DNA of 31,438 nucleotides from the IMG/VR virus record IMGVR_UViG_3300025083_000135, positions 1-31,438 of that record; one strand, given 5' to 3'. The DNA is from a virus. Under the pieces are notes generated by a model, which saw only the letters and a list, made by a program, of their open reading frames with translations, was not told the DNA's origin and searched no databases. The position numbers and the translations under genes are program-made. This document shows, piece by piece, positions 1,162-20,292 of this stretch (the first letter of the stretch is position 1; every line of letters begins with the position of its first letter).

Positions 1162-1953
1162 TTATTTTTTACCTGCAACCTTTTGAGCGGCAACATCTAC
1201 GTCAACAGCAAATGCACCTTCTCTATACGGATCTGCTGGATCTGCTGATGTGTCTGGATCACGCATATCTTTTGGTACTGTAGGAAACATCATAACTGCT
1301 TGCCATGGCTCGTAGCCGTTTGCTTGTGCCCAAGCTGGTAAATCTCTTAGTCTTTGTCTATAATCTTTCCAAGTCTGTTGAATAGATTCGGGAGCGTCTG
1401 TCTGTCCAACTTTAGCGTCTGTATCATGCAGATGAGAATCTCTAACATCTCTAAGATCTTGCCATGTTAGATCCATTTTTGTACCTGTTGCGGCCCAATC
1501 ATGAATACCAATATTGAATGTTTCTGTAGCAAAATCATATGTGATGTTTTGTTCGTCGTATACATCTCTTGGCTCTAATTCGTCTGTATATTCAACGTCC
1601 ATATAACCGTCTGGTGCGTCCCAAAGAATTTTCCATTCTCTTTGACGTCTCATTAATACTTGTTCGTCTTTACCGTCATCGTTACCAATTTCACATAGTA
1701 AAGGATTTTCTTTACAATCAACAGTAACTCTTGTAATATCTGCGGCAGTTGGTCTTTCAAGATCCATCTTTTCCCATAGACACCAACCAGATTCTTTACC
1801 GTAGTTATCTGTATCTGCAGGGTCATTACCTATTTCAAACGTTAAAAATTCAGGACCTTTATAAGTAAAGGTGCCGGTTCTTCCGTTTTCAAAACTATTT
1901 TTTCTCCACTCGTCCCAAATTGGGTAAGTAAATGTTTTTTCAATTTTTCTCAT
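1162..1953 (-). CDS. Probable tail fibre assembly / tail chaperone-like protein
   Basis: 263 aa, starting at an ATG with AGGAG about 9 nt upstream and a late promoter box further up. The C-terminal part holds QQTWKDYRQRLRDLP (about residues 190-204) followed by a MMFPTVP segment. The W-x-x-Y-R-x-x-L-R-D-L-P pattern ending in a F/W-P-x-x-P is typical of the phage tail assembly chaperone family (tail fibre assembly proteins). The N-terminal 180 residues are acidic and tryptophan-rich and not recognised. Family members help fold or attach fibre tips and are often encoded just after the fibre gene. Here the gene comes right after three Cys-rich putative tip proteins, which fits. An alternative is a structural protein that shares only this C-terminal motif. 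Confidence 0.65.
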   Translation of the reverse strand: MRKIEKTFTYPIWDEWRKNSFENGRTGTFTYKGPEFLTFEIGNDPADTDNYGKESGWCLWEKMDLERPTAADITRVTVDCKENPLLCEIGNDDGKDEQVLMRRQREWKILWDAPDGYMDVEYTDELEPRDVYDEQNITYDFATETFNIGIHDWAATGTKMDLTWQDLRDVRDSHLHDTDAKVGQTDAPESIQQTWKDYRQRLRDLPAWAQANGYEPWQAVMMFPTVPKDMRDPDTSADPADPYREGAFAVDVDVAAQKVAGKK

Positions 1954-1982: not shown

Positions 1983-2822
1983 TTACATGAATGTTATTCG
2001 AACAACGCCTGAGCCGCCTTGTCCAGATCCACCTGCACAGCACTTAGCCCAGTTATTACAATATGAACTAACGCCTGGCATTCCGCCTCCTGCTGGCCAC
2101 TCAATGTGACAACCGCAATTACACCATCCTTCGGCAGTTACTGATACTGTCATTTTACCAATTAATGGAGGTTGTCCTGATCCTGAATACTGATACACAC
2201 AGTGACAGTAACCATGTCCTGGTTCCCATCCTGTAGTTCCCATCATTCCAAAATCTGCTCCAAAAATACCACATCTATTACAGTTTTCACAACCAAAGTG
2301 TGTGTGTCTTGGACCCCATGCGTCTCCATTACACATCCAGCCACCACAGCCGCCTACTGTACAAAAATTCGATAAGTTATGTCCGTTTACATAACTCTTA
2401 CAACCCATACTTGCACCACAAGTATGTGCTTTACCACATGGCCAAGCGCCACCAGCACATACACTGTACTGACATCCTGGAGATGTTGCAATAGTCTTAG
2501 ACCCGTAATTGCCTCCAGCGCCGCCAATTGAAAATGAACAACAGTTACAGCAAGTGTGACCTGGGCCGCCACCGCCACCTGACCAAATTTCAAATGTTAC
2601 TGTACTTGCACCATCTGGTACACACCAATAACAGCATTTTCCGTTTGCTTGTTCGCAACAGCCACTTTGTCTAGCACACTGATGACATCTCATGCCACGT
2701 TCATTGTAGATCCATTGTACACCCATATTGTTGCCGTTACCGTGTGCGATATCAGCGGACGTAATTGTTCCGTTAACTATACTGTCATTTGCTACTTTTT
2801 TATAACTTGCGTATGTTGCCAT
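1983..2822 (-). CDS. Cysteine- and glycine-rich putative tail-tip/adhesin protein, copy 3
   Basis: 279 aa with about 30 cysteines (near 11 percent), many as CC or CxC pairs. It opens MATYASYKKV like its two neighbours. The layout is a short N-terminal stalk-like part (1-35), a WIYNERGMRCHQC box (about 37-49), a GGGGGPGHTCCNCC run (about 82-95), YSVCAGGAWPCGK, CKSYVNGHNLSNFC, CGGWMCNGDAWG, CGIFGADFGMMG, then a variable stretch (about 190-232), and a conserved WPAGGG...WAKCCAGG end. No signal peptide or membrane segment is seen. Gly-rich loop sandwiches are known in T-even adhesin gp38, an analogy and not a demonstrated homology. The cysteines may bind metal or form disulfides after release; function is unproven. 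Last of three tandem paralogues. Confidence 0.8.
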   Translation of the reverse strand: MATYASYKKVANDSIVNGTITSADIAHGNGNNMGVQWIYNERGMRCHQCARQSGCCEQANGKCCYWCVPDGASTVTFEIWSGGGGGPGHTCCNCCSFSIGGAGGNYGSKTIATSPGCQYSVCAGGAWPCGKAHTCGASMGCKSYVNGHNLSNFCTVGGCGGWMCNGDAWGPRHTHFGCENCNRCGIFGADFGMMGTTGWEPGHGYCHCVYQYSGSGQPPLIGKMTVSVTAEGWCNCGCHIEWPAGGGMPGVSSYCNNWAKCCAGGSGQGGSGVVRITFM

Positions 2823-2834
2823 TTCTTATCCTTA

Positions 2835-3671
2835 CTATGCGAATGTTATTCTAACCATGCCTGATCCACCCATATTGCCGCCTGCACAACATTTTGCCCA
2901 GTTACCACAATATGAACTTTGTCCTGTTTGTCCACCACCTGCAGGCCAGTTAACATAACAAGCACAGTTACACCACGCTTCTGCGTTAGCACCTGCACTG
3001 TGTCTGCCTACAAAAGGTGCCGAACCTGACATTCCCCAGTCTGCTGATTTACATTGACATCCACCGTGTCCACCCATTACACCGGTTGATCCCATAATTC
3101 CAAAGTCTGCTCCAAAAATTCCACATATATTACAGTTACCACATGTTTGTGTATGGTTTGGTCCCCATGCACCACCGTTACACATCCAACCTGGACATCC
3201 ACCTGTAGTACAGAAGTTACTTAAATTTGCACCATTAACATAACTTTTACAACCCATTCCTGCGACACAAGTATGCGATTTACTACAACGCCATGTACCA
3301 CCTGCACAAATTGAATATGTACAACCTGGACACGTACTAATAGTTTTTACTGCATAGTTACCACCTGATCCGCCTGCAGAGTGCATACAGTTGTTACAGC
3401 AAGTAGCGCCTGCGCCACCGCCTCCACCTGACCAAATTTCAAATACTACTTTTGAAGTGCTAGCCGGAACTGTCCAGTAGCAACACTTACCATTTGCTTG
3501 TTCACAACAATCGCCAGCATCTGAACATGCCATGCATCTCATGCCTCTTTCATTATAAACCCAAAATACGCAATACTTGTTACCTGCGCCAGCGCCTAGT
3601 TTAGCGGCCGTAATACTATTGTCTTGAAAGTTGTCTGCTGTTAATGTTTTATAACTTGCGTATGTTGCCAT
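2835..3671 (-). CDS. Cysteine- and glycine-rich putative tail-tip/adhesin protein, copy 2
   Basis: 278 aa with about 29 cysteines, colinear with the copies on both sides. It keeps the VYNERGMRC box, the GGGGG run, CKSYVNGANLSNFC, CGGNCN-type pairs, CGIFGADFGIMG and the terminal WAKCCAGG block. It is the most divergent copy: the box after the start reads MACSDAGDCC where the others have CARQSGCC, and NNCMH replaces NCCSF. The segment between CQC and EAWCNCAC (about 200-230) is unlike the other copies. It begins 12 nt after the previous copy with only a weak ribosome site, so co-translation within one mRNA is likely. Function is not known; a receptor-binding or tip role is inferred from position downstream of the fibres. 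Confidence 0.8.
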   Translation of the reverse strand: MATYASYKTLTADNFQDNSITAAKLGAGAGNKYCVFWVYNERGMRCMACSDAGDCCEQANGKCCYWTVPASTSKVVFEIWSGGGGGAGATCCNNCMHSAGGSGGNYAVKTISTCPGCTYSICAGGTWRCSKSHTCVAGMGCKSYVNGANLSNFCTTGGCPGWMCNGGAWGPNHTQTCGNCNICGIFGADFGIMGSTGVMGGHGGCQCKSADWGMSGSAPFVGRHSAGANAEAWCNCACYVNWPAGGGQTGQSSYCGNWAKCCAGGNMGGSGMVRITFA

Positions 3672-3683
3672 TATTTTCTTTCC

Positions 3684-4523
3684 TTATACAAACGTTATTT
3701 TTACTATGCCAGATCCACCTTGACCTGAACCACCTGCACAACATTTTGCCCAGTTACCACAGTAACTAGATGTTCCTGGAACTCCACCGCCTGCTGGCCA
3801 AACAATGTGACATCCACATGCACACCATGCTTCGTTAGTAGTTGTACCACCGTAAGTTCCAATACCTGCGGCCGCTCCTGTCCAACCTGTTTGTCCGTGA
3901 CATCTACAAGTTGTTGTACCTGCTTTAATACCCATACCGCCCATCATTCCAAAGTCAGCACCAAATATTCCACATATATTACAGTTCGCACAGTTTGTTA
4001 CAGCATGTCTTTGACCCCATGCATCACCATTACACATCCAGCCGCCACATGCGCCAGTAGCACAAAAGTTACTTAGGTTGTGACCGTTAACATAGGATTT
4101 ACAACCCATGCCCGCTGAACACGTATGTGATTTACCACATGGCCAACTTCCGCCTGCACAAACACTATATTGACATCCTGGATTGGTATCAATTGTTTGA
4201 ATTGCATAGTTTCCGCCTGCGCCTCCAATTGCAAATGAACAACAATTACAACATGTATGTCCTGGACCGCCGCCTCCGCCGCTCCAGATTTCAAAAGTTA
4301 CTTTGTAAACATTGTCTGGTGCACACCAGTAACAACATCTACCATTTGCCTGTTGACAACATCCTGATTGTCTTGCACACATGTGACATTGCATACCGCG
4401 TTCGTTGTATACCCATTGTGTCTTACGACAAGCACCTGCACCAGGTTGTAACTTGGTCCTTGTGATTGATCCGTCGGGTATTCCTTCCGATGTAACCTTT
4501 TTGTAACTGCTGTATGTTGCCAT
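3684..4523 (-). CDS. Cysteine- and glycine-rich putative tail-tip/adhesin protein, copy 1
   Basis: 279 aa with about 31 cysteines, first of the three in transcription order. It shares with copy 3 the ARQSGCC, CCNCCSF, PGCQYSVCAGGSWPCGK and CCAGGSGQGGSG segments, so copies 1 and 3 are closer to each other than to copy 2. The N-terminal linker (about 12-36) and the region after CRC (about 200-235, rich in T, G and A) are the variable parts. An AAGGAAA ribosome site lies just upstream; no late promoter is visible, so it is read from the promoter at 5367. I have the impression that related Cys-rich proteins occur in other marine T4-like phages, but this could not be searched. Confidence 0.8.
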   Translation of the reverse strand: MATYSSYKKVTSEGIPDGSITRTKLQPGAGACRKTQWVYNERGMQCHMCARQSGCCQQANGRCCYWCAPDNVYKVTFEIWSGGGGGPGHTCCNCCSFAIGGAGGNYAIQTIDTNPGCQYSVCAGGSWPCGKSHTCSAGMGCKSYVNGHNLSNFCATGACGGWMCNGDAWGQRHAVTNCANCNICGIFGADFGMMGGMGIKAGTTTCRCHGQTGWTGAAAGIGTYGGTTTNEAWCACGCHIVWPAGGGVPGTSSYCGNWAKCCAGGSGQGGSGIVKITFV

Positions 4524-5376: not shown

Positions 5377-8300
5377 TTATGTTTTACTTGTTAAAAAGTA
5401 CGCAAATGCAACTGGACTTCCACTTACACCGCCGTTAAAGTTCATTCCCGTAGTTACAGTAATTGGACTATTATCGGTTGTACCTATTGTATTTCCAGTA
5501 ATATTTATTTTACCTGCTGTAACTGCGTTAACGTTCAGAGAGCTACTTCCTCCACCAATCTGTGAATTGATGTATGTAATAATTGCTCTTTGTGTCGGAA
5601 CAACGTTATCTGAACTTGCACTAAATGTACCATCTGTACTAAATTCATTAATAACAGCGCCGCCTTGTCCTAAGCCAACTGCACCTAGTGACAATTCTTG
5701 TAGTCCTGCTAAACTGAATGCACTTGTATTCAAACTAGCTGATCCTGTTGATTGTTCAACGTTGAACAATCTACCAACTCTAAAGTTACCGTCTTGGTCA
5801 GTACTTGTGTAGAATATTCTACCTCCGCCTGACTCTGTAACTTCATCACTTGGATCATTAGCAACACTCGGTGTTCCTGGATAGTTAGTACTTGCAAAGT
5901 TACCTGTACCAATGTCTAGGAAATCGTGTCCTGTTAATCTTACTTGACTAAATCTCTTTCTTATTGTAATGTTAGTACCGTGCTCTGGAGAAGTTTCAAC
6001 TCCTAAGTCTGGTGACACTTGTAAACTAGCAGTATAGTTACCTGAACTACCTAGTAGTTCTCTAACAAACACAATTTTAAAGAATCTGCTATCGCCATCA
6101 AGTTGTAAGTTTGCACCTTCAACTGGAATATCACTCATTCCGTAAACGTTCATAAATTGTGCTGATTGATAAATGTCAGCATATCCATCACCGCTTACTG
6201 TGCCGCCTGCAGTTTCAAAGTCTGTACCTCTTCCAGTCCATGTTGGCTGTGCTAACACACCGTCAGCAATTCTAGTTTCCCATGGAACTTCAGTAGTTTC
6301 ACTTGGATCTGTAATTGTTAATGTTGGAGTACTTGTGTAACCACTACCTGGATTAACAATATAGAACTGTGTAATTCTACCAGTTGTTACTTCTGCTCTA
6401 ACTTGAGCTCCTGTACCACCGCCGCCAATTACTTGGACTCTTGGTTCAATACTGTATGCTGTTGTAGCATCAAGTGTTGCCTCAATACCGTTTGTTGGAT
6501 GCCATGTTTCCCAGCCTGCCGCATTATCTGATTCTTTTGCAATACTAGCAACTTTGGTACCTGGATTGTATGCACTAATAAATCCATACTGTCCTGCACC
6601 TGTACCTGCTGTAATAACAACTCTCATACCAATGTATTTTGTACTGTTGGCTGTTTCAGTGTTTGACAATGTAATAGATGTAGTTCCACCTGCCTGTGCA
6701 GTATTTTCACTACTAGAGTAACCTCTACCACCTATTGAGTCTGCATCATTAAACAATCCATCACTGTTAGTATCTTTTTCATTGTAACTAGATCCATCAT
6801 CTGGGTTACGTAATCTAACTTCAAACAATCCACCATTTACATAGTTACCGTTAGCTACTACTGCACCATATCCATCTCCACTAATTGTGTAAGTTGCGTT
6901 AGTGTAGTTGTTACCAGCGTTAGTATATTCAAAGTGTATAATTTGATTACCGTCTGTTAATGCTCTACCAATCTGTGCTTCAAGTTTTCTGTTGTTAACA
7001 CCACCTGTTGTTGGAATCTCAGTAACGTCAATAAATTCTGATACTGCACCTTTGTCACCGTATGAACAGTTACCATTAGTACCACGTATCTTACCGCCGT
7101 TTTCTGCAAGGTATCCAATATGTCCGTAGTATGAGAAAATACTAACAAGTTCTGCTCTACCTAAGTTTGTTACCCATGCACCAATACCATCACTTAAAAT
7201 TTGTGTAAAGTCGTTAGCAACAATTGAGTCATTACCACCGTTGTGTAGTGCTCCATCAACTTTTAGTCCTACACATGCAGTACCAAAGTTTGTTACACCT
7301 TGTACATATGGAGAACGTGTTGTGATCCATACACGATCATCGTCTGGTCCCCAGCCTGGATCTAGTGAACAAAATGCTCCTGCTGTTGGACGTTTAGTTC
7401 CGTAAGCGTTTGCTGATCCTAATGTTCCTGATAATCCGCCTAATGTCATGTTTCTAATGCCTGTACCGTCTCTTAGTAAGTACATATTTTCTAATGTAGA
7501 ACCGTTTACACTGTTACCATACATTAATCCTGCTATTAGTGTAGCATAGTTACTACCTTCACCTGTTGCATTGATTAAGTCATATATAAATGCATCAATA
7601 TAATGTGCAACATCTGCTTCACAAGCCGCTTCATCAAATGAGTATGCTGGATAGTTTACATTAATATATTTTGTAACATCACGTCCAATAAACGCTTTGT
7701 TCAAATGTAGTATTCTAGCCGCCGCAAACTTAGTTTGATCATCAACTCTTTCATTTGCACCTCTATATAATGGTGCTGAACTATCGCCTGATGCTCCGTT
7801 AACTAAGTAATCAATTTGATCATATAGCTCTGTACATAAGTTTTCAACATAAGTTGATACTCCACTAGTACTCCAAGGCTTACTAACATTCTGTGTAAGT
7901 GTATTGCCAGTTTGTCTTGTAATTGTTGTACCTTCAATAACATCGTCGATTATTGATTTCATGTGTAGAATACCAGCTAGTGAATAAGTTGTATCAGCTG
8001 ATTCTGTTACACTTCCTGCTGGTTCAACTCTTGTACTACGTAGTTCGTCACCAACAATAGCTGTTAGTTCTGGAACTCTAATAGGTAATACTTCAGTATA
8101 TGTTCCTGTTTTAACATAGATAACTTTGTGTATTTTCTTTGCTGTAGGAACTGTATAACCTGCACCTAGCGAAATAGCTGATGTAATAATAGCCATACTT
8201 GCTGTTAACTCTGTTAATGCATTTGATTCTTCAACTCTTGTAGCGTCTTTAATTTGTAAGTATCTATCACCCGATGCAACACTATCTAAATCTTGATAGT

Positions 8301-10218
8301 CTGCCGCTGGTGTAGCACTGTCTAGTACATCTTCTACTAGAGAAATTACAAAGTTAAGTGCCGCAACGTTTTGTGATTCTGAACCAGTTGTAAAGAAGTC
8401 CGGACTTACATTGTCTTTCATTGCTTGTGCAACTCTAACAGTATGTACGTTTCCGCCGTGCTTAAGATCTAATACAATACCGTCTAATGCAAATCCTGCA
8501 AGTCTTTGGAACTTGTCTTCATCAAAAGCAAAACCAATAAAGAATGGTGATGTTTGTGTAATGATTTGTCTCTTAGCCCATTTTGCAGTTTCAAATGCAA
8601 TGAACATTCTGTTTTCTTCTAATAGTGATGCCGCATTAGGATTCTTAGGTCCTTTTTCAACTTCTTCACATGCGTAACGAATTGATTTCCAAGGACGGTC
8701 AAGTGTTCCTCCTCCTGTTGGGAATACTTTATTTGCACCGTTAGTTGCAACATAGTAAACATCAGGAGTTAAACCAAAATCTCTCCATTCAGGTATTCCA
8801 CTTGCACTAACACTTAGTACTTGTCCTTCACCACCAATTGGTAATCTTGCAGGACCTGATCCTGAACGATAAAGTAAATCACCTTCAGTAGTAATTGCTG
8901 ATTCCTCAGCACCACTTGCTAGTGTATTCCAATATGTACCATCGTCTGCAGATGGTTTATTAAGGTTGCTTGATGTGTGTGCAAGAATACAAATATAACT
9001 TATTAATCCTTCACGTACTGTATCACCTGCATCATATAATGTAGCAGTTGACCAACCGTTTTTCCATTCAATACCTTGGTTTAGTCTTGACCAATAAGTA
9101 GAATTTGGTGGACGTTGTGCTTGGTTGTCAGCAATAGCTAGGTAAGTATAACCACCTAATCTTACAACATCGCCAATTCTGTAATCTTGGTTAGATGAAT
9201 CATCGCCCCAGTCACCTCTATTATTAAAGCCTGAAGTTACTAGATCAAATTTTGAACTAGATGCAGGATTTTCTGCAAAAACGTTATCGTTAGCAACATA
9301 TTGGTTACCACCATAAGTTACAAAATCACCTGGTTGATATCTTTCATCTGGTTGCCATGAATTTTCAAATTCTAGTCCAGGTACAAACTTTTCCCAATTT
9401 GCAATATCTGCTTGGAGTGTACCTAACTGTGAGTCTGGATTAGTAACAACTGATGTGTGATGAGTTGTACAAATATAAAGTGTTGCACCAAATAGTACAA
9501 TGTCGTTAACTTTATATCTATAAGCATTAACCCATTCGCCTAAATATTCAAAACCTTTGTTTAGATAATCCCACTTACTTTGATCTGCTTCAAGTCCGTT
9601 TGCGGCTGTAGCATTTGAAGTGTGTCCAGTGTTACAAACATAAAGTGTTCCACCATATCTAATAATGTCGTTAATTTTGTAACGAGTTGAAATAGCCCAA
9701 TTCTGTTTCCAGTCTTGACCTTCTGAGAACAAATCCCATTTTAAAATATCTTGTTCAAGTCCAAGTGCATTAGTGGCCGCGGCAGTGTGACCAGTGTTAC
9801 ACAAGTAAATGTTACCACCATATTTTACCAAGTCGTTTGCTTTATAAATTGTTCCAGCTACCCAGTTGTCTTTCCAGTCAATGGATGTAGCAAACTGATC
9901 CCATTTTGATTGATCAGCTTCTAGTGTTGCTTGTGCTGTGTGGCCAGTGTTACAAATGTAAATAATACCACCATATCTTACGATGTCATTAATTTTGTAA
10001 AATGTTGATGTTGACCAATCACTTTGCCATTTTGTACCATCACTGAATAGATTCCAGTGTGATGCGTCTGTGTAGAAATCAGCACTTGAAGTATGCCCTT
10101 TCACTGCAACGTAAGTACGTCCACCGTACCTAATTACGTCATCTTTCAGGTAACTCGTTCCTGTTGTCCACGAGTCCTTCCAAATAAATCTAATTCTACC
10201 TAGCTTAAATTCTGCCAT
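5377..10218 (-). CDS. Giant tail fibre with CBM-like repeats and beta-helix (1613 aa)
   Basis: Residues about 8-450 hold eight degenerate repeats of the form W-x-x-G/S-T-x-Y-x-x-x-D-x-V/I-x-Y-G-G-x-x-Y-x-C-x-x-G-H-T, which resembles the family 5/12 chitin-binding module. About 490-1200 begins with YYVATNGANK and PWKSIRYACE, the usual opening of phage beta-helix (DUF1565/pectin-lyase-like) regions. It continues with helix-type repeats including RNMTLGGLSGTLG and GALHNGGNDSIVANDFTQ. A conserved distal block follows: VRLTGHDFLDIGTGNFASTN, GRIFYTSTDQDGNFRVGRLF, and SDNVVPTQRAIITYINSQ. It is a full-length paralogue of the 1862-aa gene and lacks that gene's propeller insert. It is likely a long side or tail fibre that binds surface polysaccharide. 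No enzymatic residues are apparent. Confidence 0.82.
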   Translation of the reverse strand: MAEFKLGRIRFIWKDSWTTGTSYLKDDVIRYGGRTYVAVKGHTSSADFYTDASHWNLFSDGTKWQSDWSTSTFYKINDIVRYGGIIYICNTGHTAQATLEADQSKWDQFATSIDWKDNWVAGTIYKANDLVKYGGNIYLCNTGHTAAATNALGLEQDILKWDLFSEGQDWKQNWAISTRYKINDIIRYGGTLYVCNTGHTSNATAANGLEADQSKWDYLNKGFEYLGEWVNAYRYKVNDIVLFGATLYICTTHHTSVVTNPDSQLGTLQADIANWEKFVPGLEFENSWQPDERYQPGDFVTYGGNQYVANDNVFAENPASSSKFDLVTSGFNNRGDWGDDSSNQDYRIGDVVRLGGYTYLAIADNQAQRPPNSTYWSRLNQGIEWKNGWSTATLYDAGDTVREGLISYICILAHTSSNLNKPSADDGTYWNTLASGAEESAITTEGDLLYRSGSGPARLPIGGEGQVLSVSASGIPEWRDFGLTPDVYYVATNGANKVFPTGGGTLDRPWKSIRYACEEVEKGPKNPNAASLLEENRMFIAFETAKWAKRQIITQTSPFFIGFAFDEDKFQRLAGFALDGIVLDLKHGGNVHTVRVAQAMKDNVSPDFFTTGSESQNVAALNFVISLVEDVLDSATPAADYQDLDSVASGDRYLQIKDATRVEESNALTELTASMAIITSAISLGAGYTVPTAKKIHKVIYVKTGTYTEVLPIRVPELTAIVGDELRSTRVEPAGSVTESADTTYSLAGILHMKSIIDDVIEGTTITRQTGNTLTQNVSKPWSTSGVSTYVENLCTELYDQIDYLVNGASGDSSAPLYRGANERVDDQTKFAAARILHLNKAFIGRDVTKYINVNYPAYSFDEAACEADVAHYIDAFIYDLINATGEGSNYATLIAGLMYGNSVNGSTLENMYLLRDGTGIRNMTLGGLSGTLGSANAYGTKRPTAGAFCSLDPGWGPDDDRVWITTRSPYVQGVTNFGTACVGLKVDGALHNGGNDSIVANDFTQILSDGIGAWVTNLGRAELVSIFSYYGHIGYLAENGGKIRGTNGNCSYGDKGAVSEFIDVTEIPTTGGVNNRKLEAQIGRALTDGNQIIHFEYTNAGNNYTNATYTISGDGYGAVVANGNYVNGGLFEVRLRNPDDGSSYNEKDTNSDGLFNDADSIGGRGYSSSENTAQAGGTTSITLSNTETANSTKYIGMRVVITAGTGAGQYGFISAYNPGTKVASIAKESDNAAGWETWHPTNGIEATLDATTAYSIEPRVQVIGGGGTGAQVRAEVTTGRITQFYIVNPGSGYTSTPTLTITDPSETTEVPWETRIADGVLAQPTWTGRGTDFETAGGTVSGDGYADIYQSAQFMNVYGMSDIPVEGANLQLDGDSRFFKIVFVRELLGSSGNYTASLQVSPDLGVETSPEHGTNITIRKRFSQVRLTGHDFLDIGTGNFASTNYPGTPSVANDPSDEVTESGGGRIFYTSTDQDGNFRVGRLFNVEQSTGSASLNTSAFSLAGLQELSLGAVGLGQGGAVINEFSTDGTFSASSDNVVPTQRAIITYINSQIGGGSSSLNVNAVTAGKINITGNTIGTTDNSPITVTTGMNFNGGVSGSPVAFAYFLTSKT

Positions 10219-10265: not shown

Positions 10266-13200
10266 TTATCCATTAAAGTCATCTCGTTCAGTTCTGCCCG
10301 ACATAAACATATTCATTGCGGCTAATCCGCCGCCTAGTGGTCCGTTAACAGTCAAGTCAACTGCTACAGTAGCCTGTGATTCTGGAACATTTACTCCAGC
10401 TGTGTTTGACCACGTAGTGTCTTCAAATACTAACTGACCTGCTGTTAGTTTGTTTGTAAACAAGTTTGATCCACCACCATTAAATCTATTTTCTATGTAT
10501 AGTTTTAATGCATTTTGTGTTGGAACAATATTGTCTGAGTTAGCAACAAAAGTATTATCAGTACTAAATTCTCTAATAACAGCCTGTGTTCCTCCAACTC
10601 TAATTCCACCAAGTCTTAACTCATCTAGTCCTTCTAAGTCAAAGAAGTCTGCACTTAATGTAACACCACCTTGTGCCTGTGAAACTCTAAATAACTCACC
10701 AACTCTATAGTTACCATCTTGGTCTGTACTTGTGTAGAATACTCGTCCGCCGTTTGATTCAACAACTTCATTTGCTTGTCTTGTTTCATTCGACGCTGAT
10801 TGTCCAAATACATAAAGCCCTGGATAGTTAGTATTAGCAAAGTTACCAGTACCAATATCTAGGAAGTCATGTCCTGTAAGTCTACAGCTACTATAACGTT
10901 CACGTATAGTAACTCCGGTGCCATGTATAGGTGCTAATGCACGACCTAATACTGGACTAATTTGGAATGTTAATTCAATGTTTGGTGCTACACCGCTTGA
11001 TTCTGTAACTTTAACCAATCTATAAATTGTATCACTTCCTGTAAATCTTACGTTTGCACCTGGTCCTGGAATTAAACTCAGTCCACTAATTTTCATAGTG
11101 TTACCAATTTGTAATTCTTCTCCAAAACCATTACCAGCTATTGTTACAATCGCACTTTGATATCCTGTACCTCTATTAACAAATGTTGGTTGTGGTAAAG
11201 CGCCGTTGTTAATATCAACAACATAGTACGGCTCACTGTACTCTTCAGGATCTTCAACTGTTACTGTTGGTGGAGTAATATATCCACTACCTGGATTGTA
11301 AATATTAAACTGATTTAATTTTCCATCTTTTACTTCAACTCTTGCAAATGCTGTTGCACCACCAGTAATAATGTTACCAACTGATCCTGCATTTGATAAG
11401 CCAACCCATGTTGGTAAGTTATTTCTAATTCCGCCTGCTATTGCTGTTAAGTTTCCTGTAGCTTCTCTTACAGTCCAACCATATCCGTTATCTGAACTTA
11501 CTGTTGTTCCAGTGCTACTTACTGCTAAGAATGCACCTTGTGTATAACCAATTTTCCAGTTTTCTCTACCTGAGTCTCCAACTAATTGCGAGTCTGACCA
11601 TGCAGTACCAGTGTCACTGTAGATAACTCTATCTGACTGTGCCATTGTTGCAATCCAACAGTTGTTACCAAAAATTAAATCGCTGTATACTTCTGGTGCC
11701 GCAGGTGTTACCGCCGCTCCAGTGTTCCATGTTACTCCATTGTCTCCTGAATAAACTGTAGTACCGTCTTCAGCGATTGCAATCCATTTGCCTGCACCGT
11801 ATGCTAGTCCTACCCACGTAGTTGCACTTCCGCCTGTTGCTACTGTAGTCCAAGATCCACTTGCAACTTGTGTTGAGTCGTCTCCTGTTGTAAGTGTGTT
11901 TTTATAAATGTTTGCATTGCCTGTAGCAAGACACATAATTGTATCATTGTTTGGTCCACCAATTGCAACATGTTTCCAAGATGTACTTGCTGGAAGTGTT
12001 GAGTGATCAAAGTTAATACCATCATTTGAATATACTAGTTTGTTACTACCGTCTGCAACTGCCGCTATAATTGGACCAGTTTTAGCAAAGCCTGACCAAC
12101 TTAAACTGTAGTCTGCTAAATCTCTATTTGTCCAAACTGCGCCATCTGCTGAAACATAAAAGTCATTAGTTCCAGTTACAGCATAATACCACATACCAAT
12201 GTCGTTACTATAACCCATACCCAGTGAACCTGTTTGTACACTGTTGTTAGACTTACTAAATGTTGGGCTTTCTATACTAACTCTTGGCTCATAAAAGTAA
12301 ACTGTAGTTGCTGATAATGCTGTTACATTTAATTTCCCTGGAACAATATTATCCCATCCTGGTGAGTTAGTTGATTCTGTATATACTGTTGCAGTAAATG
12401 TTGCAGGATTATAACTTTGAATCCATCCATATTGTCCTGCACCAATACCTTCAGTAATAACAATACGCATTCCTATTAGCTGTGCCGCTGTTCTTACTTC
12501 TGAAGCCGCTAAAATAATGCTTGATAAATCTCCGCCCTGTGCTGAGTTACCAAAAGATTTAAATCCTCTACCACCAACGTTTGTACTGTCATCTGGTAAT
12601 TGTAAATCAATTTTTGAAATAGCACCTTGTCTAAATTCATCAAATTGCATATCTAGTCCAACACCTGATGCTTGAGTAGTTGATGCTGTTGCTTGTGTAT
12701 AAGTTTGTCCTGTATTTTTGTATGCTAGTGCAAGTATAGAAGTACCTGTTGACCAAACTTCATCTACAGTTGCTTCTCCTGATTGGTTATTAACTGTAGC
12801 AGTTTGTGGAGTTTCTGTTGTATCAAATCCTTCTGATACACTACCAAATGTTCCGTACGAGTTGTTACCGTTAGTAGCACGTAAAATTCCGCCGCTCTCT
12901 GCTAGATAACCAATGTGTGCGTAATATGTAAACACTGATACAAGCTCTGAACGTCCTCTGTTTGTTGCCCAGTAACCAATGCCGTCACTTAGTACTTGTG
13001 TAAAGTCGTTAGCAACAATAGATCTGTTACCACCGTTGTGTAGTGATCCATCAATTTTCATACCAACACAGTTGTCACCAATTGTTGTAACACCTTGTAC
13101 ATATGTTGATCTACCGCCAGCAATTCTCTTTAAGTTTACAGCACCTGCTGATGCACTTACAAATGTGTGTGCTGATGTTTCAGAACTAATCCCTACATTC

Positions 13201-15854
13201 ATTGTAATAATATTACCACTTACGTTTGTAATTTCAATGTTTTTATTATAATAAGGATCTGTAGTTCTTGGATGGGAAAGTGGTGTAACATTTCCATCAC
13301 TAGCACATGTCCATGTTAAACTTTGTGCGTCTAGTGTAATAGAATTTCCTATTTTAATGTTGTGTGACCAGTTTACAGAATTCATTGATGCAGTTACAAA
13401 TCTATGTTCAGATACATTTGAACTTACACCTACATTTACTGTAATAGTAGTAGCTGTTTTTGCAACAATTTTACATAACTGTCCGCCGTGTGCTGGATCC
13501 GAAACTCTTGGATATGCTTGTGGGTTTGCATAGTTATTTGATGCACAACTAAATTGGATACTCTCGTCATCAAAAGTAACTTCTTCACCTACAGATAATC
13601 CATGTACAGTACCAAATTCTAATGTCATTTGTCCTGTTACAGGATCGTAAGTTGTTCCTGTTGTAGGTGTATATTGTGCTGTTGGTAATGTCAATGTCAT
13701 TACACCTGTTGTTGGTTCATAAGTACCAGCTGTTGGTGTATACTGCATATTGTTTACGTTTGCAATCCAAACACTTGAATCGTCTGGTCCAGTACCTGGA
13801 TCTAATGAAACAAACGCTCCGCCTGTTGGACGACTTGTTCCGTAATCGTTTGGTCCTACTAACACACCTGTTAATCCTTTAAGTGTTAAGTTTCTAATTC
13901 CACAACCATTTCTAACATAAAACATATTTGATATGTTGTTAGCTGATGGAATAATTAATGCTTCTTGTGGTTGTGGCACACCGTGTATATAAGTTTTTTC
14001 GCCTAGTACAACATCGCCTTGATCAGTCATAGCCGGTCTAACTGTAGTTGATCTAAGTTCTGCACCTACTAGTGCAACTTTACTAGGAATACTAATTGGA
14101 AGTATTTCTGCAAAATCTCCTGACATAACTTTAACTGTTGCATGTTCGCCAACTCTGTTAGGTTCATCTGCTAATAAGTAATTCATTGCAAATCTAATAG
14201 TTCTAAATGGAGAGTTTAATGATCCACCTGCTGTAGCATCGTCAATACCGTTACGTGAAACATAATATAAATTATCTTGTAAATCTAATGTATCCCATGC
14301 TGGCATACCGTTAGTTGATCTTAGCGTTTGTCCTGTTGCGCCAATTGGTAAACGTAATGTATCAATTGCTGTAGAATCTTGATCTTGGAATGTTTTCAAA
14401 TCACCTTTTCTTGCTAACTTGTTAGTTAGTGTACCAAGTACTGCAATTTTCCAGTAGTTTTGATCTGGCTGTTCTACATCTAAATCTGGTCTTGATGCTG
14501 ATTCACTTGAACGATGATATTGTAAACAAGTATACGAAGAACCTTGCCAGTTAACTATATCACCTTTAAAGTATTCAATATTATCTTCCCAATAGTCACG
14601 CCATTGTCTACCGTCAATAACTAATTCCCAGTATGCAGGCCATGTATCAGGCTGTAAGTTTGTACTGTCTTGAATAGCAATATATAAGCTACCTGAAAGA
14701 CGTACTAGATCACCTGTTTTGTAATCTACAAATGCAGAGTCATCGCCTGCACCGTTCCAATTACCTTTAAACGTATAACCTTCAAATGATACATTCCAAT
14801 CAGTTCCATATAAACTTGGTTGTAATGCTGTATTAAATGTAATTGCTTTATAAATGTAACCACCGTAAAGTACAGTATCACCAGGTTGATAATAAACGTT
14901 ATCAGCCCAAACATTTTCATATTCACTACCAGGTAAGTATACTGCCCATCTACTTGCGGCATAGTCTGTATTAAATCCACCACTGCCTGATGTTGATGTG
15001 TGTCCTACTAGACACTTCATTAAGTTGGCGCCACGTTTTACAATGTCGTGTTTCTTATATCTATAATCTGCTTGCCAAATACCTTCAATAGTTTCAACAC
15101 CTGTATCTGGATCTTCGTAAACTTTTGTTACATATTCGATACCATCAAGTTGTACTGCCCATTTAGCTTGGTCTTCTTCTAGTCCAAGTGTAATAGAATC
15201 TGCTGATGTGTGTCCTTGAACACACTGATAAACAATACCACCGTACTTGACAATATCATTAACACGATAACGTGTACCAATTGACCATGTAGCTCTCCAT
15301 GTATCACTGTCTGACAATACTGTCCAGTCTGCTTGGTTAGCTTCAAGTCCTAACAGCGTAGTTGCGGCAGAAACGTGCTGATTAGTTGCTTTGTAAACTT
15401 TACCATTGTAACGTACAAGATCGTTTGTTCTATATAATGTATTAATTGTCCAGTTGTATTTCCAGTCAGCGGACGAAACAGCAACTAATGTCCATTTTCC
15501 AATGTCAGCAACTAGACCGTCTGTACCTGAAACAAATGTTGCGGCAGATGTATGTGATTCAGTACATTCGTAAATACTAGCACCGTATTTTACTAAGTTA
15601 CCTATGGAGTAATCTGTACTAGTAGTCCAAGTATTTTTCCAAACTTTACCTTCTGATTGTTTAGTCCATTTTGGTTCAGCTGGTGTAACGTCTGTACCTG
15701 CTACGTCATTATAGAAAGTTCCTGCTGTATGTGTTTTTAATGCTACATACGTAAAACCTTGGTATTGTATCATATCGTCAACGATATAATCACTACCACC
15801 GGCCCATTCGCCTTTCCAGTTAAATCTAATTCTACTAAGTTTAAATTCTGCCAT
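10266..15854 (-). CDS. Giant tail fibre with CBM-like repeats, beta-helix and inserted Asp-box propeller (1862 aa)
   Basis: It starts MAEFKLSRIRFNWKGEW, near-identical in plan to the 1613-aa fibre. About 8-480 holds eight CBM-like W...Y...D-x-V-x-Y-x-G-x-x-Y-x-C...H-T-S repeats. NLYYVSRNGID and PFRTIRFAMNYLL (about 525-560) open the beta-helix. About 700-900 contains two copies of a module with F/W-x-C-A-S...P-R-x-x-D-P and a N-V-G-I/V-S-S...H-x-F-V-x-A-S ending. About 1205-1495 is an insert absent from the paralogue, with repeated Asp-box-like motifs SADGAVW, SNDGINF, SGDNGVTW, SDTGTAW and SSDNGYGW. The distal part repeats the conserved VRLTGHDFLDIGTGNFANTN and FYTSTDQDGNYRVGELF blocks. The role is inferred as host-surface binding; the propeller may bind glycans. 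Confidence 0.82.
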   Translation of the reverse strand: MAEFKLSRIRFNWKGEWAGGSDYIVDDMIQYQGFTYVALKTHTAGTFYNDVAGTDVTPAEPKWTKQSEGKVWKNTWTTSTDYSIGNLVKYGASIYECTESHTSAATFVSGTDGLVADIGKWTLVAVSSADWKYNWTINTLYRTNDLVRYNGKVYKATNQHVSAATTLLGLEANQADWTVLSDSDTWRATWSIGTRYRVNDIVKYGGIVYQCVQGHTSADSITLGLEEDQAKWAVQLDGIEYVTKVYEDPDTGVETIEGIWQADYRYKKHDIVKRGANLMKCLVGHTSTSGSGGFNTDYAASRWAVYLPGSEYENVWADNVYYQPGDTVLYGGYIYKAITFNTALQPSLYGTDWNVSFEGYTFKGNWNGAGDDSAFVDYKTGDLVRLSGSLYIAIQDSTNLQPDTWPAYWELVIDGRQWRDYWEDNIEYFKGDIVNWQGSSYTCLQYHRSSESASRPDLDVEQPDQNYWKIAVLGTLTNKLARKGDLKTFQDQDSTAIDTLRLPIGATGQTLRSTNGMPAWDTLDLQDNLYYVSRNGIDDATAGGSLNSPFRTIRFAMNYLLADEPNRVGEHATVKVMSGDFAEILPISIPSKVALVGAELRSTTVRPAMTDQGDVVLGEKTYIHGVPQPQEALIIPSANNISNMFYVRNGCGIRNLTLKGLTGVLVGPNDYGTSRPTGGAFVSLDPGTGPDDSSVWIANVNNMQYTPTAGTYEPTTGVMTLTLPTAQYTPTTGTTYDPVTGQMTLEFGTVHGLSVGEEVTFDDESIQFSCASNNYANPQAYPRVSDPAHGGQLCKIVAKTATTITVNVGVSSNVSEHRFVTASMNSVNWSHNIKIGNSITLDAQSLTWTCASDGNVTPLSHPRTTDPYYNKNIEITNVSGNIITMNVGISSETSAHTFVSASAGAVNLKRIAGGRSTYVQGVTTIGDNCVGMKIDGSLHNGGNRSIVANDFTQVLSDGIGYWATNRGRSELVSVFTYYAHIGYLAESGGILRATNGNNSYGTFGSVSEGFDTTETPQTATVNNQSGEATVDEVWSTGTSILALAYKNTGQTYTQATASTTQASGVGLDMQFDEFRQGAISKIDLQLPDDSTNVGGRGFKSFGNSAQGGDLSSIILAASEVRTAAQLIGMRIVITEGIGAGQYGWIQSYNPATFTATVYTESTNSPGWDNIVPGKLNVTALSATTVYFYEPRVSIESPTFSKSNNSVQTGSLGMGYSNDIGMWYYAVTGTNDFYVSADGAVWTNRDLADYSLSWSGFAKTGPIIAAVADGSNKLVYSNDGINFDHSTLPASTSWKHVAIGGPNNDTIMCLATGNANIYKNTLTTGDDSTQVASGSWTTVATGGSATTWVGLAYGAGKWIAIAEDGTTVYSGDNGVTWNTGAAVTPAAPEVYSDLIFGNNCWIATMAQSDRVIYSDTGTAWSDSQLVGDSGRENWKIGYTQGAFLAVSSTGTTVSSDNGYGWTVREATGNLTAIAGGIRNNLPTWVGLSNAGSVGNIITGGATAFARVEVKDGKLNQFNIYNPGSGYITPPTVTVEDPEEYSEPYYVVDINNGALPQPTFVNRGTGYQSAIVTIAGNGFGEELQIGNTMKISGLSLIPGPGANVRFTGSDTIYRLVKVTESSGVAPNIELTFQISPVLGRALAPIHGTGVTIRERYSSCRLTGHDFLDIGTGNFANTNYPGLYVFGQSASNETRQANEVVESNGGRVFYTSTDQDGNYRVGELFRVSQAQGGVTLSADFFDLEGLDELRLGGIRVGGTQAVIREFSTDNTFVANSDNIVPTQNALKLYIENRFNGGGSNLFTNKLTAGQLVFEDTTWSNTAGVNVPESQATVAVDLTVNGPLGGGLAAMNMFMSGRTERDDFNG

Positions 15855-16575: not shown

Positions 16576-19500
16576 CTAAATTGTTAATGCAAGTTTAATT
16601 GCAATTTCCTCTGCATCGTTAAATGTAACAGCACCAGTAGCACCTGCAACTGAAACCCAGTTATTACCTACATCATATATTTCAACTCTGTCTTCCACTG
16701 TATTATAACGCATCATACCAAGTTCTGGACTAGGATGTCTATTTGCGTTATTACCAACTGGAATAACAAAACCGCCTGTGCCATCAACTTTAAAGTATCC
16801 TGTACCTTGTTGTTTTAAAGAAGTAATAGCACCGTCTATAGTATTAGTTATCTGATTTCCGTTAAAACTAAAGTTTTCAACAGCAACATAACCGCTTCCA
16901 TTTGCACGTAAAAGCAAGTTTTGATTAGTTGTAATTGTTTCTAATATGCTACCATGTATAGCAATATCGTCAACTTCTAAACGTTTTGCATCAAATCTTT
17001 GGCTAGTAACATCAGCTACTAGCGATCCGCCTGCATAAAAACGTAATGTGTCGTCATCTGCACCTGGTGTTAGTTCTGGTGTAATATACGTATCTCTGTC
17101 AATATCGTAAACTCCACCTAGTGTATTCCACTCAGTAGTGTATGCTTCAAATACTGAAGTATCTGTATTGTAACGTATCATACCTGCTATAGGTGATCCA
17201 GGACGCTGTGCTGTTGTACCTTTAGGTAATGTTAAAGATCCTGTACCATCAATTGTTACAGTTTGACTACTTGGATCTAATACAATATCACCACCTGGAT
17301 TAGCAACAGTATTTCCACTAAGTTCAATGTTGTCAATAATAACTTGACCTACACCGTTAGTTGTAATATTAATATCACCGTTACTTGCAGTTGTAGTAAT
17401 TGTGTCATTATCAATAATAATATCATCAACAAGGACTTTACCAATATTTGCTTCTGACCAGTTTAATAATGCTGTACCTAATTTATAAGTGTCATCAATA
17501 TTAGGTACAATGTCACTATCAATTCTTGCATTAATATTAATTGTATCTGTGTCTTCGTCACCTAGTGTAATATTGCCGCCAACAGTTACGTTTCCAGTAA
17601 CATCTAAATTACCTGTAATATTAACATTGTCTTGTAAATTAATTGTGCTAGTGGAACTATTAATATTAATGTCGCCGCTTGTACTACTAATAGTATTTCC
17701 GCTTATTCTAATATTTCCACTTTCAACTTTTGTTCCGTCAATTATTGTTGTGCTTGTGCCGTCAGTAAATGTAATACCTTGGTTATTGTTGAATAAGAAT
17801 TCTGCGTTAGTAAATGTTACTTCACCTGTGTCTTGATTAATTCTAAACAAGTCTCCAACTCTAAAGTCGCCTTTATGATCAACTGTACTAAAGTATACAT
17901 TCGCATCACTATTTGCAACTACTTCGTTTTCTTGTATAACTGCTGTAATATCATTTGTTACGTCTTTACCTGTACCAATGTATGCAAGGTTCATACCAAT
18001 TGCATAAACAACTGATCCGCTACCTGTGCCATGTATTCCATAGTTGCCGTAAACACTTGCACTTGCAATACTTCTAATTTCTCCACCAAAGTCTGAATGG
18101 TCAATTAGTGTTAGTGCTGTAGCTGTACCACCTGCACTAAAGTCAATGTCTTGAATAAACGTATCATCGTCTACTAAAATTTGTGATCCGTTGTCACCAT
18201 TAAAGTCTAATTTTAAAACTGTATACTGATCAACTACTGTTGGTGCTGTAGGGTTACTAAATGCTGTTGTTACTCCAACACCTTTTCTAACTCTAAAGTC
18301 GTCTATACGTCCATCAAAGCCTTGTGTACCTGCATAATTGTTACCAATTACTAACGGCTTTGTAGTACCTAAATTTGTATTGTTACTTGCTGTTGCTTGT
18401 ACTGCGCCATCTACAAATAATTTAATTGTAGAGCCCACTCTTGATATCATAATATGATAGTAAGTAGTGTTTACTAAAGTAATTGCAGGAGCCATAATCT
18501 CTGTATTACCAATGTATACTTTAGGCTGTCTATCAACTGTATAAAAATGTAATGCGTTGTCTGTATCTGATCCTGCTCTAAAATCAAACTTACTTTCTGT
18601 TCCAGTATCATCTGCAATGTAAATTACACATTCAACACTAAAGTCACCAGTTCCAAAACCAAAATCACTTGCTGTTGTTAATGTAAATCTATCATCAGTA
18701 CCGTCAAACAATCCCATACCAGTGCCATACTTAACTGCACCAGTTGTTGTTATCTGTGCATTACCAACTGCTGTAACTGTTTTCTTAGCTCTACTTAACG
18801 GTGTAATAAATCCGTTTGCTCTGCCGTCAATAATAACTTCATTAGTTGCAACACTTTCAATAGTTGATTGTGCTAGTTGTGTTCCGCTTGCATCTTTAAG
18901 TGTAATTGTTTGACCTGCGGCAGGTGTTGTTCCTTCTAACCCGCTATACTTAATTCTTGTTTTACCGTCGCCTTTAAGACCAGTTGTACCTTCAAGTATT
19001 TCAATGCCTTTGTCTGCAAAATATGTAAAACAGTTTAACCATTCTACTCTTGCACCATTAGTAACTTTTAGTCCACTTGCATTTGGCGTAATAAATGTTA
19101 CACTATGGAAAAGCATACTTGCTTCACGTGAGTCTACGTGTGCAACACTACCATCTAAGTATGCTCCACGTCCTGCATCGCCTGCGGCGAATCCTCTTGG
19201 ATCAGTGTTAGAAGTAGTTGTACCTTTTGTAATTACACTTACATTTCTAATGTAAGGTGATCTTTCATAAACTCTAAAGTTATTTGCAAAACGGAAAGCA
19301 TGTCCTGTAGTTGCTCCACTATTATAATAAAAATCTTTAATAGTAACATCTTCAACTGCTGAGTCGCCGTTCATTACAAATGCATCATTACTTTGTGTTC
19401 CGCTTGTTGGTGAAATTTCAACTGCACGTAAACTGTGTCCTCTTACTGTAACACCTTGTGGTACTGTTAATGGAAATGCTTCTTGATATTGTCCAGGATA

Positions 19501-20292
19501 AATGTAAACTGTGTCGTGTAATCCTGCAAGCTCTAAACCCTTTGCAATAGTTGCAACAGGATCTTGTGGGTGTGTACCTGTTCTTACATCATTACCATTT
19601 GAGGAAACATATATAATATTTCCTGGAATACTAATTAGGTCAATAGCACCAAAGTCTAAGTCGTTTGTTGTTAGTGTGTTTGTTGTTACGTTAGCAAAAT
19701 TACCTGTTGCCCAACGCTTTGTTTCAGTACCAATGTTATAAGTGTTATGCACATCAGGCATAATATCACTTGCAATGTCTGCATTAATAAAAATATTATC
19801 TGTATCTGAATCACCAATTGTAATATTTCCGTCTGCACTAATATTTCCTGTAGCGTGTAAGTTACCAGTAACAGTTGTATTACCTACAATATTAATTACA
19901 CCAGTGCCGTTAGCACGTATAAACAAATCATCATTTGTACTTGTATTTTCAATAAATGTGTTATTGATTTCTAAATCGCCTACAACAACTCTATTACCAA
20001 CAATAGTATTGTCAGCAGTTGCAATAGCAAATTCTTGTGCGGAAGTTGATATAGTGCTTGTTGCACCATCAATAGTTACGTTTCCAACTTGGAAGGTAGT
20101 ATTTGTAATTTCTAGATCAGTTACTCTGGCAACGCCTGCAACATCTAATGCGTATTGAGGATTGGTGGTTTTGACACCGATTCGACGGTTTGTTACATCT
20201 AAGTATAATAAGTCTGTCTCAAAGGCTAAATCCGTCCCATTACGTAGGAGGTTTTCCTTTAAGAGAGGACCCGATATGCGACCAATTGCCAT
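16576..20292 (-). CDS. Large tail fibre with beta-helix and inserted LamG-like domain (1238 aa)
   Basis: It begins GRISGPLLKENLLRNGTDLAF followed by RRIGVKTTNPQYALDVAGVA, the G-I-G-x-x-T-x-x-P-x-x-x-L-x-V-x-G pattern common in fibre shafts. About 235-460 is a beta-helix region (YVSSNGNDVRTGTHPQDP, YIYPGQYQEAFPLTVPQG). About 515-700 is an insert resembling a LamG/concanavalin-like jelly roll, with FGTGDFSVECVIYI, YYHIMISRVGSTIKLFVDGA and GFDGRIDDFRVRKGV. It is followed by the conserved FSTVDHKGDFRVGDLFRIN block. The last third has repeated GNVTVGGNITLG-type shaft segments and two TTAQRP...RYNT modules. It is a paralogue of the 1351-aa fibre. The insert suggests carbohydrate recognition. The stop lies 8 nt before the 109-aa gene. 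Confidence 0.82.
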   Translation of the reverse strand: MAIGRISGPLLKENLLRNGTDLAFETDLLYLDVTNRRIGVKTTNPQYALDVAGVARVTDLEITNTTFQVGNVTIDGATSTISTSAQEFAIATADNTIVGNRVVVGDLEINNTFIENTSTNDDLFIRANGTGVINIVGNTTVTGNLHATGNISADGNITIGDSDTDNIFINADIASDIMPDVHNTYNIGTETKRWATGNFANVTTNTLTTNDLDFGAIDLISIPGNIIYVSSNGNDVRTGTHPQDPVATIAKGLELAGLHDTVYIYPGQYQEAFPLTVPQGVTVRGHSLRAVEISPTSGTQSNDAFVMNGDSAVEDVTIKDFYYNSGATTGHAFRFANNFRVYERSPYIRNVSVITKGTTTSNTDPRGFAAGDAGRGAYLDGSVAHVDSREASMLFHSVTFITPNASGLKVTNGARVEWLNCFTYFADKGIEILEGTTGLKGDGKTRIKYSGLEGTTPAAGQTITLKDASGTQLAQSTIESVATNEVIIDGRANGFITPLSRAKKTVTAVGNAQITTTGAVKYGTGMGLFDGTDDRFTLTTASDFGFGTGDFSVECVIYIADDTGTESKFDFRAGSDTDNALHFYTVDRQPKVYIGNTEIMAPAITLVNTTYYHIMISRVGSTIKLFVDGAVQATASNNTNLGTTKPLVIGNNYAGTQGFDGRIDDFRVRKGVGVTTAFSNPTAPTVVDQYTVLKLDFNGDNGSQILVDDDTFIQDIDFSAGGTATALTLIDHSDFGGEIRSIASASVYGNYGIHGTGSGSVVYAIGMNLAYIGTGKDVTNDITAVIQENEVVANSDANVYFSTVDHKGDFRVGDLFRINQDTGEVTFTNAEFLFNNNQGITFTDGTSTTIIDGTKVESGNIRISGNTISSTSGDININSSTSTINLQDNVNITGNLDVTGNVTVGGNITLGDEDTDTININARIDSDIVPNIDDTYKLGTALLNWSEANIGKVLVDDIIIDNDTITTTASNGDINITTNGVGQVIIDNIELSGNTVANPGGDIVLDPSSQTVTIDGTGSLTLPKGTTAQRPGSPIAGMIRYNTDTSVFEAYTTEWNTLGGVYDIDRDTYITPELTPGADDDTLRFYAGGSLVADVTSQRFDAKRLEVDDIAIHGSILETITTNQNLLLRANGSGYVAVENFSFNGNQITNTIDGAITSLKQQGTGYFKVDGTGGFVIPVGNNANRHPSPELGMMRYNTVEDRVEIYDVGNNWVSVAGATGAVTFNDAEEIAIKLALTI

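Follow-up and report, generated by a model that had tools for sequence, protein, structure and literature searches.

A predicted seven-bladed Asp-box propeller at a fixed site in tandem giant tail fibres of an uncultured T4-like virus, and its inferred loss from one paralogue

Why does one of two tandem giant tail fibre genes carry a propeller-like segment that its neighbor lacks, was this segment gained by the one fibre or lost from the other, and what might it do for the virus? The window, i.e., the whole stretch of 31,438 nucleotides that was analyzed, is a linear viral record (31.4 kb) that includes a T4-like major capsid gene and a minus-strand block of structural genes. Its virus is an uncultured T4-like phage, probably a marine one, since its GenBank relatives are mostly marine cyanophages. 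The fibre pair is laid out as follows.

10266..15854, minus strand: fibre A, 1862 aa, first of the tandem giant tail fibre paralogues (ORF; PHROG tail fibre families)
5377..10218, minus strand: fibre B, 1613 aa, the propeller-less second paralogue (BLASTP and alignment with fibre A)
14430..15854, minus strand: N-terminal region of fibre A, residues 1-475, with eight CBM_5_12 matches (Pfam PF02839, E 2.7e-41)
13119..13763, minus strand: module of fibre A, residues 698-912, with an apparently recombined core at ~751-900 (dS; sliding identity)
12273..13118, minus strand: 'pre' flank ahead of the propeller, fibre A residues 913-1194, common to fibre B (BLASTP, 45% to B)
10269..11363, minus strand: 'post' C-terminal flank, fibre A residues 1498-1862, common to fibre B (BLASTP, 43% to B)

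CBM_5_12 repeats are found at the N-terminus of both fibres, which are 39-45% identical across most of their shared parts. The original prediction described the two paralogues as otherwise colinear. The order of their blocks agrees with this description; strict colinearity does not hold, as further large blocks set them apart, one found only in A (~698-912) and two found only in B (~520-700 and 780-910). A tail fibre assembly-like gene (1162-1953, minus strand) adjoins the fibre cluster, and 16576-20292 on the same strand encodes a protein that resembles a baseplate wedge and has, at residues 530-668, a LamG/ConA-like lectin domain (Pfam PF13385). Three Cys- and Gly-rich paralogues in tandem, each of ~279 aa (1983-2822, 2835-3671 and 3684-4523, minus strand) belong to phrog_4205, of unknown function, and are possibly fibre-tip adhesins; S-SSM7 and Sf-FS3 likewise have three genes of ~260 aa directly behind the fibre.

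The difference between the paralogues that concerns us here maps to two positions.

11364..12272, minus strand: Asp-box beta-propeller domain, 303 aa, fibre A residues 1195-1497 (alignment with B; AlphaFold; VIA)
6421..6429, minus strand: empty site in fibre B, a 3-residue linker IGG, residues 1264-1266 (alignment with A)

BLASTP and MAFFT confirmed that the segment is missing from fibre B, and set its edges at 1195-1497, slightly wider than the ~1205-1495 first proposed. Both edges are clean, EPRVQV-IGG-GGTGAQVRAEV in fibre B corresponding to EPRVSI-[303 aa]-GGATAFARVEV in fibre A. The segment was also said to carry repeated Asp-box motifs, and five were located, the general motif being S/T-x-D/N-x-G-x-x-W/F/Y.

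12132..12152, minus strand: Asp-box SADGAVW, residues 1235-1241, blade 1 (motif pattern, strand positions)
12009..12029, minus strand: Asp-box SNDGINF, residues 1276-1282, blade 2 (motif pattern, strand positions)
11727..11750, minus strand: Asp-box SGDNGVTW, residues 1369-1376, blade 4 (motif pattern, strand positions)
11598..11618, minus strand: degenerate Asp-box SDTGTAW, residues 1413-1419, blade 5 (sequence; intact in relatives)
11475..11498, minus strand: Asp-box SSDNGYGW, residues 1453-1460, blade 6 (motif pattern, strand positions)

In blade 5 the Asp is replaced by Thr, and relatives have an intact motif with SADG, SDNG or SSDG at this position; blade 3 has no Asp-box. These repeats exceed chance, with six pattern matches in the fibre A segment against 1.7 expected from shuffles of the same segment (P ~0.007), and with 4.5 matches per insert to the strict pattern across 108 homologous inserts against 0.44 in shuffles. 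In the same 108 inserts the spacing is mostly 39-44 residues, i.e., one motif per blade. The window's segment itself had no Pfam match and no significant sequence match among solved structures, while Pfam BNR matched 7 of 12 close homologues of the propeller weakly (E 0.041).

An AlphaFold2 model of residues 1160-1540, built with 28 homologues, was nearly all beta (pLDDT 86, pTM 0.85), and its strands divide into seven four-stranded blades, in five of which an Asp-box lies in the loop that joins strands 3 and 4, where the motif has been described in Asp-box propellers (PMC2716378). VIA ranked virginiamycin B lyase, YncE and WD40 propellers first (Z 24-28, with nearly the whole domain aligned); its best match was virginiamycin B lyase at Z 27.9, and a seven-bladed designed propeller reached Z 25.3. 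The first Foldseek ranks were taken by Ycf48, a cellular photosystem II assembly factor and Asp-box propeller that has only the fold in common with our segment (~13% identity). The fold is common to many predicted viral proteins. The predicted propeller refutes a continuous beta-helix through the segment and supports the Asp-box beta-propeller that had been called from the motifs: the segment is modeled as a seven-bladed Asp-box beta-propeller that forms a unit of its own in the C-terminal half of the fibre, with conserved fibre segments on both sides. A model of fibre B, which has no propeller, was meant to show what the domain is inserted into and had low confidence (pLDDT 29).

Viral contigs were scanned with the propeller and with the 'pre' flank, and a third flank scan was aimed at basal relatives. 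In 87 other contigs, an A-type fibre likewise carries an insert at this position, with flank identities down to ~54%. In the 65 of these in which both genes were readable, the insert in A measures ~300 aa or more and B lacks one; the remaining 22 have the insert in A, the state of B lying outside the count. The scan of basal relatives, a few contigs of which overlap with the earlier sets, returned 44 contigs with the insert in A alone, 22 with inserts in both fibres, nine with the insert in B alone and two with neither, some being undetermined; L197/L198 is the sole lineage found in which both sites are empty. The propeller occupies one fixed site in ~200 related metagenomic fibre genes. Inserts missed by BLAST belong, as a group, to the same family by profile comparison (99.4%, E 1e-21, with unrelated segments of the same fibres scoring <1% as controls); results for single sequences vary, and L125 by itself gave no match. 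Inserts of ~600-800 aa are present at the same site in L112, L122, L052, L167, L174 and others, some with up to ~20 Asp-box-like motifs, and are probably two tandem propellers. L057 and L058 contain, at 6001-6693, a 388-aa ORF that matches the propeller and has no fibre segment.

The window's propeller had no match in GenBank phages, a B-lineage propeller used as query had just two distant ones, and no relative was found in genome_contigs. Cyanophage and pelagimyophage tail fibres (phrog_9851; P-SSM2, S-CAM1, Mosig) have related N-terminal and pre/post segments, and no propeller was recognized in nine GenBank records of these phages. One candidate, the S-PRM1 protein annotated as 'endosialidase' (L144, AXN58398.1), was rejected, as it has no Asp-box series and its extra segment resembles HGLxVGxxV repeats.

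How the propeller came to be in one fibre of the window's pair was addressed with trees of the fibre genes. Parsimony on 170 non-redundant genes required six presence/absence changes (one concerns an insert of intermediate length), whereas shuffled labels required ~44, and the state at the midpoint root was 'present'. IQ-TREE analysis of 54 genes gave three losses without an outgroup, several deep node supports being low both in this tree (47-59) and in the 170-gene tree (0.1-0.7). In most orthologue pairs the dS of the propeller is similar to that of its flanks, indicating that the domain was inherited together with the fibre. From the trees we infer that the propeller was present in the common ancestor of the fibres and was lost on the B lineage and on a few A lineages, so that its presence in A and absence from B in the window are best read as loss from B. 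As the GenBank outgroup fibres have no propeller, this reading requires a single, older gain ahead of the A/B split.

The original prediction had read the segment as a gained module, a recent splice into this lineage's fibre A that could have changed or widened host specificity. The clean edges, the absence from the same-genome paralogue and the propeller-less GenBank cyanophage relatives would all fit such an event. It nevertheless appears highly improbable given the same-site inserts in 87 other A-type contigs down to ~54% flank identity, the similar dS of propeller and flanks, the 'present' ancestral state and the propellers in B-lineage fibres of basal relatives. The latter inserts in the paralogue point to loss rather than gain, an outcome that the prediction itself had listed as refuting, though they occur in distant instead of close relatives. 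Rather unlikely, and less so than a new splice, is that the propeller shuttles between A and B at its fixed site by gene conversion, a question of origin that is compatible with any of the functional readings below. The identical site in both fibres, the reciprocal patterns of presence and absence and the intermixing of some basal A and B copies in the propeller tree would be expected from such exchange, but presence and absence are strongly tree-structured, and the propeller and fibre trees agree within the clade of the window.

Comparison with orthologues whose propellers share 75-92% identity with that of the window indicated purifying selection on the domain (dN/dS ~0.2). In the closer pairs, its amino acid sequence has nonetheless diverged roughly twice as far as those of the flanks, and in nearly all orthologues its identity is lower than that of either flank, e.g., 59% versus 76-78%. 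On sequence grounds, this faster divergence fits recognition-like evolution, and relaxed constraint as well. A different part of the fibre bears marks of exchange. The module at residues 698-912 is absent from fibre B and from 15 A orthologues, and its core at ~751-900 has a dS of 0.55-0.81 versus ~0.2-0.45 in neighboring regions (L002-L011). Sliding identity placed residues ~751-900 closer to L012 and L013, which are otherwise more distant relatives. Together, the high dS and this closeness indicate recombination with an L012/L013-like lineage, and the truly mobile module of fibre A is this upstream stretch and not the propeller. Within the propeller, a small patch around blade 3 (residues 1301-1350, window ~11805-11954) likewise resembles L012/L013 more than it does near relatives.

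PHROG tail fibre matches and the fold place the propeller within a tail fibre protein, and a surface-binding role is plausible. In a comparison of 108 propellers, conservation is essentially limited to Ser, Gly, Trp and Tyr of the blade frame. This conservation of frame residues alone, together with a fibre rich in carbohydrate-binding modules, makes a binding head likelier than an enzyme. The BC and DA loops are slightly more variable (0.64 and 0.66 versus 0.73), a difference too small to point to a binding face. An enzyme, be it a glycosidase, an endosialidase-like protein or a polysaccharide lyase, that would strip polymers from the surface ahead of binding was nevertheless considered. Phage tailspikes frequently bear enzymes, and the best structural match, virginiamycin B lyase, is a lyase with seven blades like our propeller (~10% identity). 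Glycoside hydrolases often contain Asp-box propellers (PMC2716378), and GH33 sialidases and phage endosialidases have the Asp-box motif in common with the fibre A domain. GH33 enzymes, however, are six-bladed and contain an Arg triad, features that were both missing from fibre A: the best Arg column among the 108 propellers reached 53%, six of the 108 had fewer than three Arg, and 28 close homologues had one invariant Arg and no R[IVL]P (RIP) motif. His was the commonest residue in no column of the 108-propeller alignment, so the catalytic residues of virginiamycin B lyase are absent as well. GH33 chains were not among the VIA matches listed, which by itself is uninformative. A catalytic propeller is improbable, and the sialidase connection that had been drawn from the motifs finds no support in these comparisons.

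It is somewhat less unlikely that the propeller is a structural part, i.e., a hinge, a spacer or a platform on which other proteins of the fibre or tip dock. Propellers are frequent protein-interaction platforms, and a tandem of three tip-like genes follows closely downstream (1983-4523). Against a structural role, the domain is missing from B and from several A lineages, showing that the fibre tolerates its loss, and its divergence outpaces that of the shared segments on either side.

We favor, with a probability of about 0.6, a non-catalytic seven-bladed propeller that binds a receptor or glycan, was ancestral to the paired fibres, and was lost from B and kept and diversified in A. In this model the propeller would form a binding head on the side of the fibre and would touch a glycan or another host-surface receptor; the ancestral pair would have had the domain, which the window's B lineage then lost while the A lineage retained it and let it diverge. 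A more speculative extension holds that the site is a fixed socket in two paralogous fibres of which at least one must stay occupied, the propeller being the primary, diversifying receptor contact and labor being divided by reciprocal loss or exchange. Nearly all phages sampled retain a propeller in one or both fibres, independent loss events being too few for statistics on such a rule; we regard this extension as tentative and doubtful.

Propellers are known in phage receptor-binding proteins, including a seven-bladed one in PhiKZ (PMC4901313). In Gp45 of Staphylococcus phage phi11, a propeller with proposed GlcNAc binding sits mid-protein, between the stem and a C-terminal domain, as in fibre A (PMC4901313); Gp45 differs in having five blades and in being a siphophage baseplate protein, and no sequence match was found. 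PhiKZ gp131C (PDB 4GBF) carries a seven-bladed propeller on a protein of the myophage tail periphery (PMC4901313). By description it resembles that of fibre A in blade number, with function unproven in both, but it forms the C-terminal domain, whereas the fibre A propeller is internal. We found the present family undescribed in the papers searched on Asp-box, BNR, seven-bladed or domain-shuffled phage-fibre propellers. What is new is a large propeller family at a fixed site common to two paralogues.

The absence of a domain from one genome's paralogue is a poor guide to gain versus loss, and attention shifts to another module of the same fibre as the recombining one. How uncultured T4-like phages recognize their hosts is largely unread. 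A recognizable, diverging, putative binding head at a fixed site in ~200 fibre genes offers a testable handle on the host surfaces that these phages contact.
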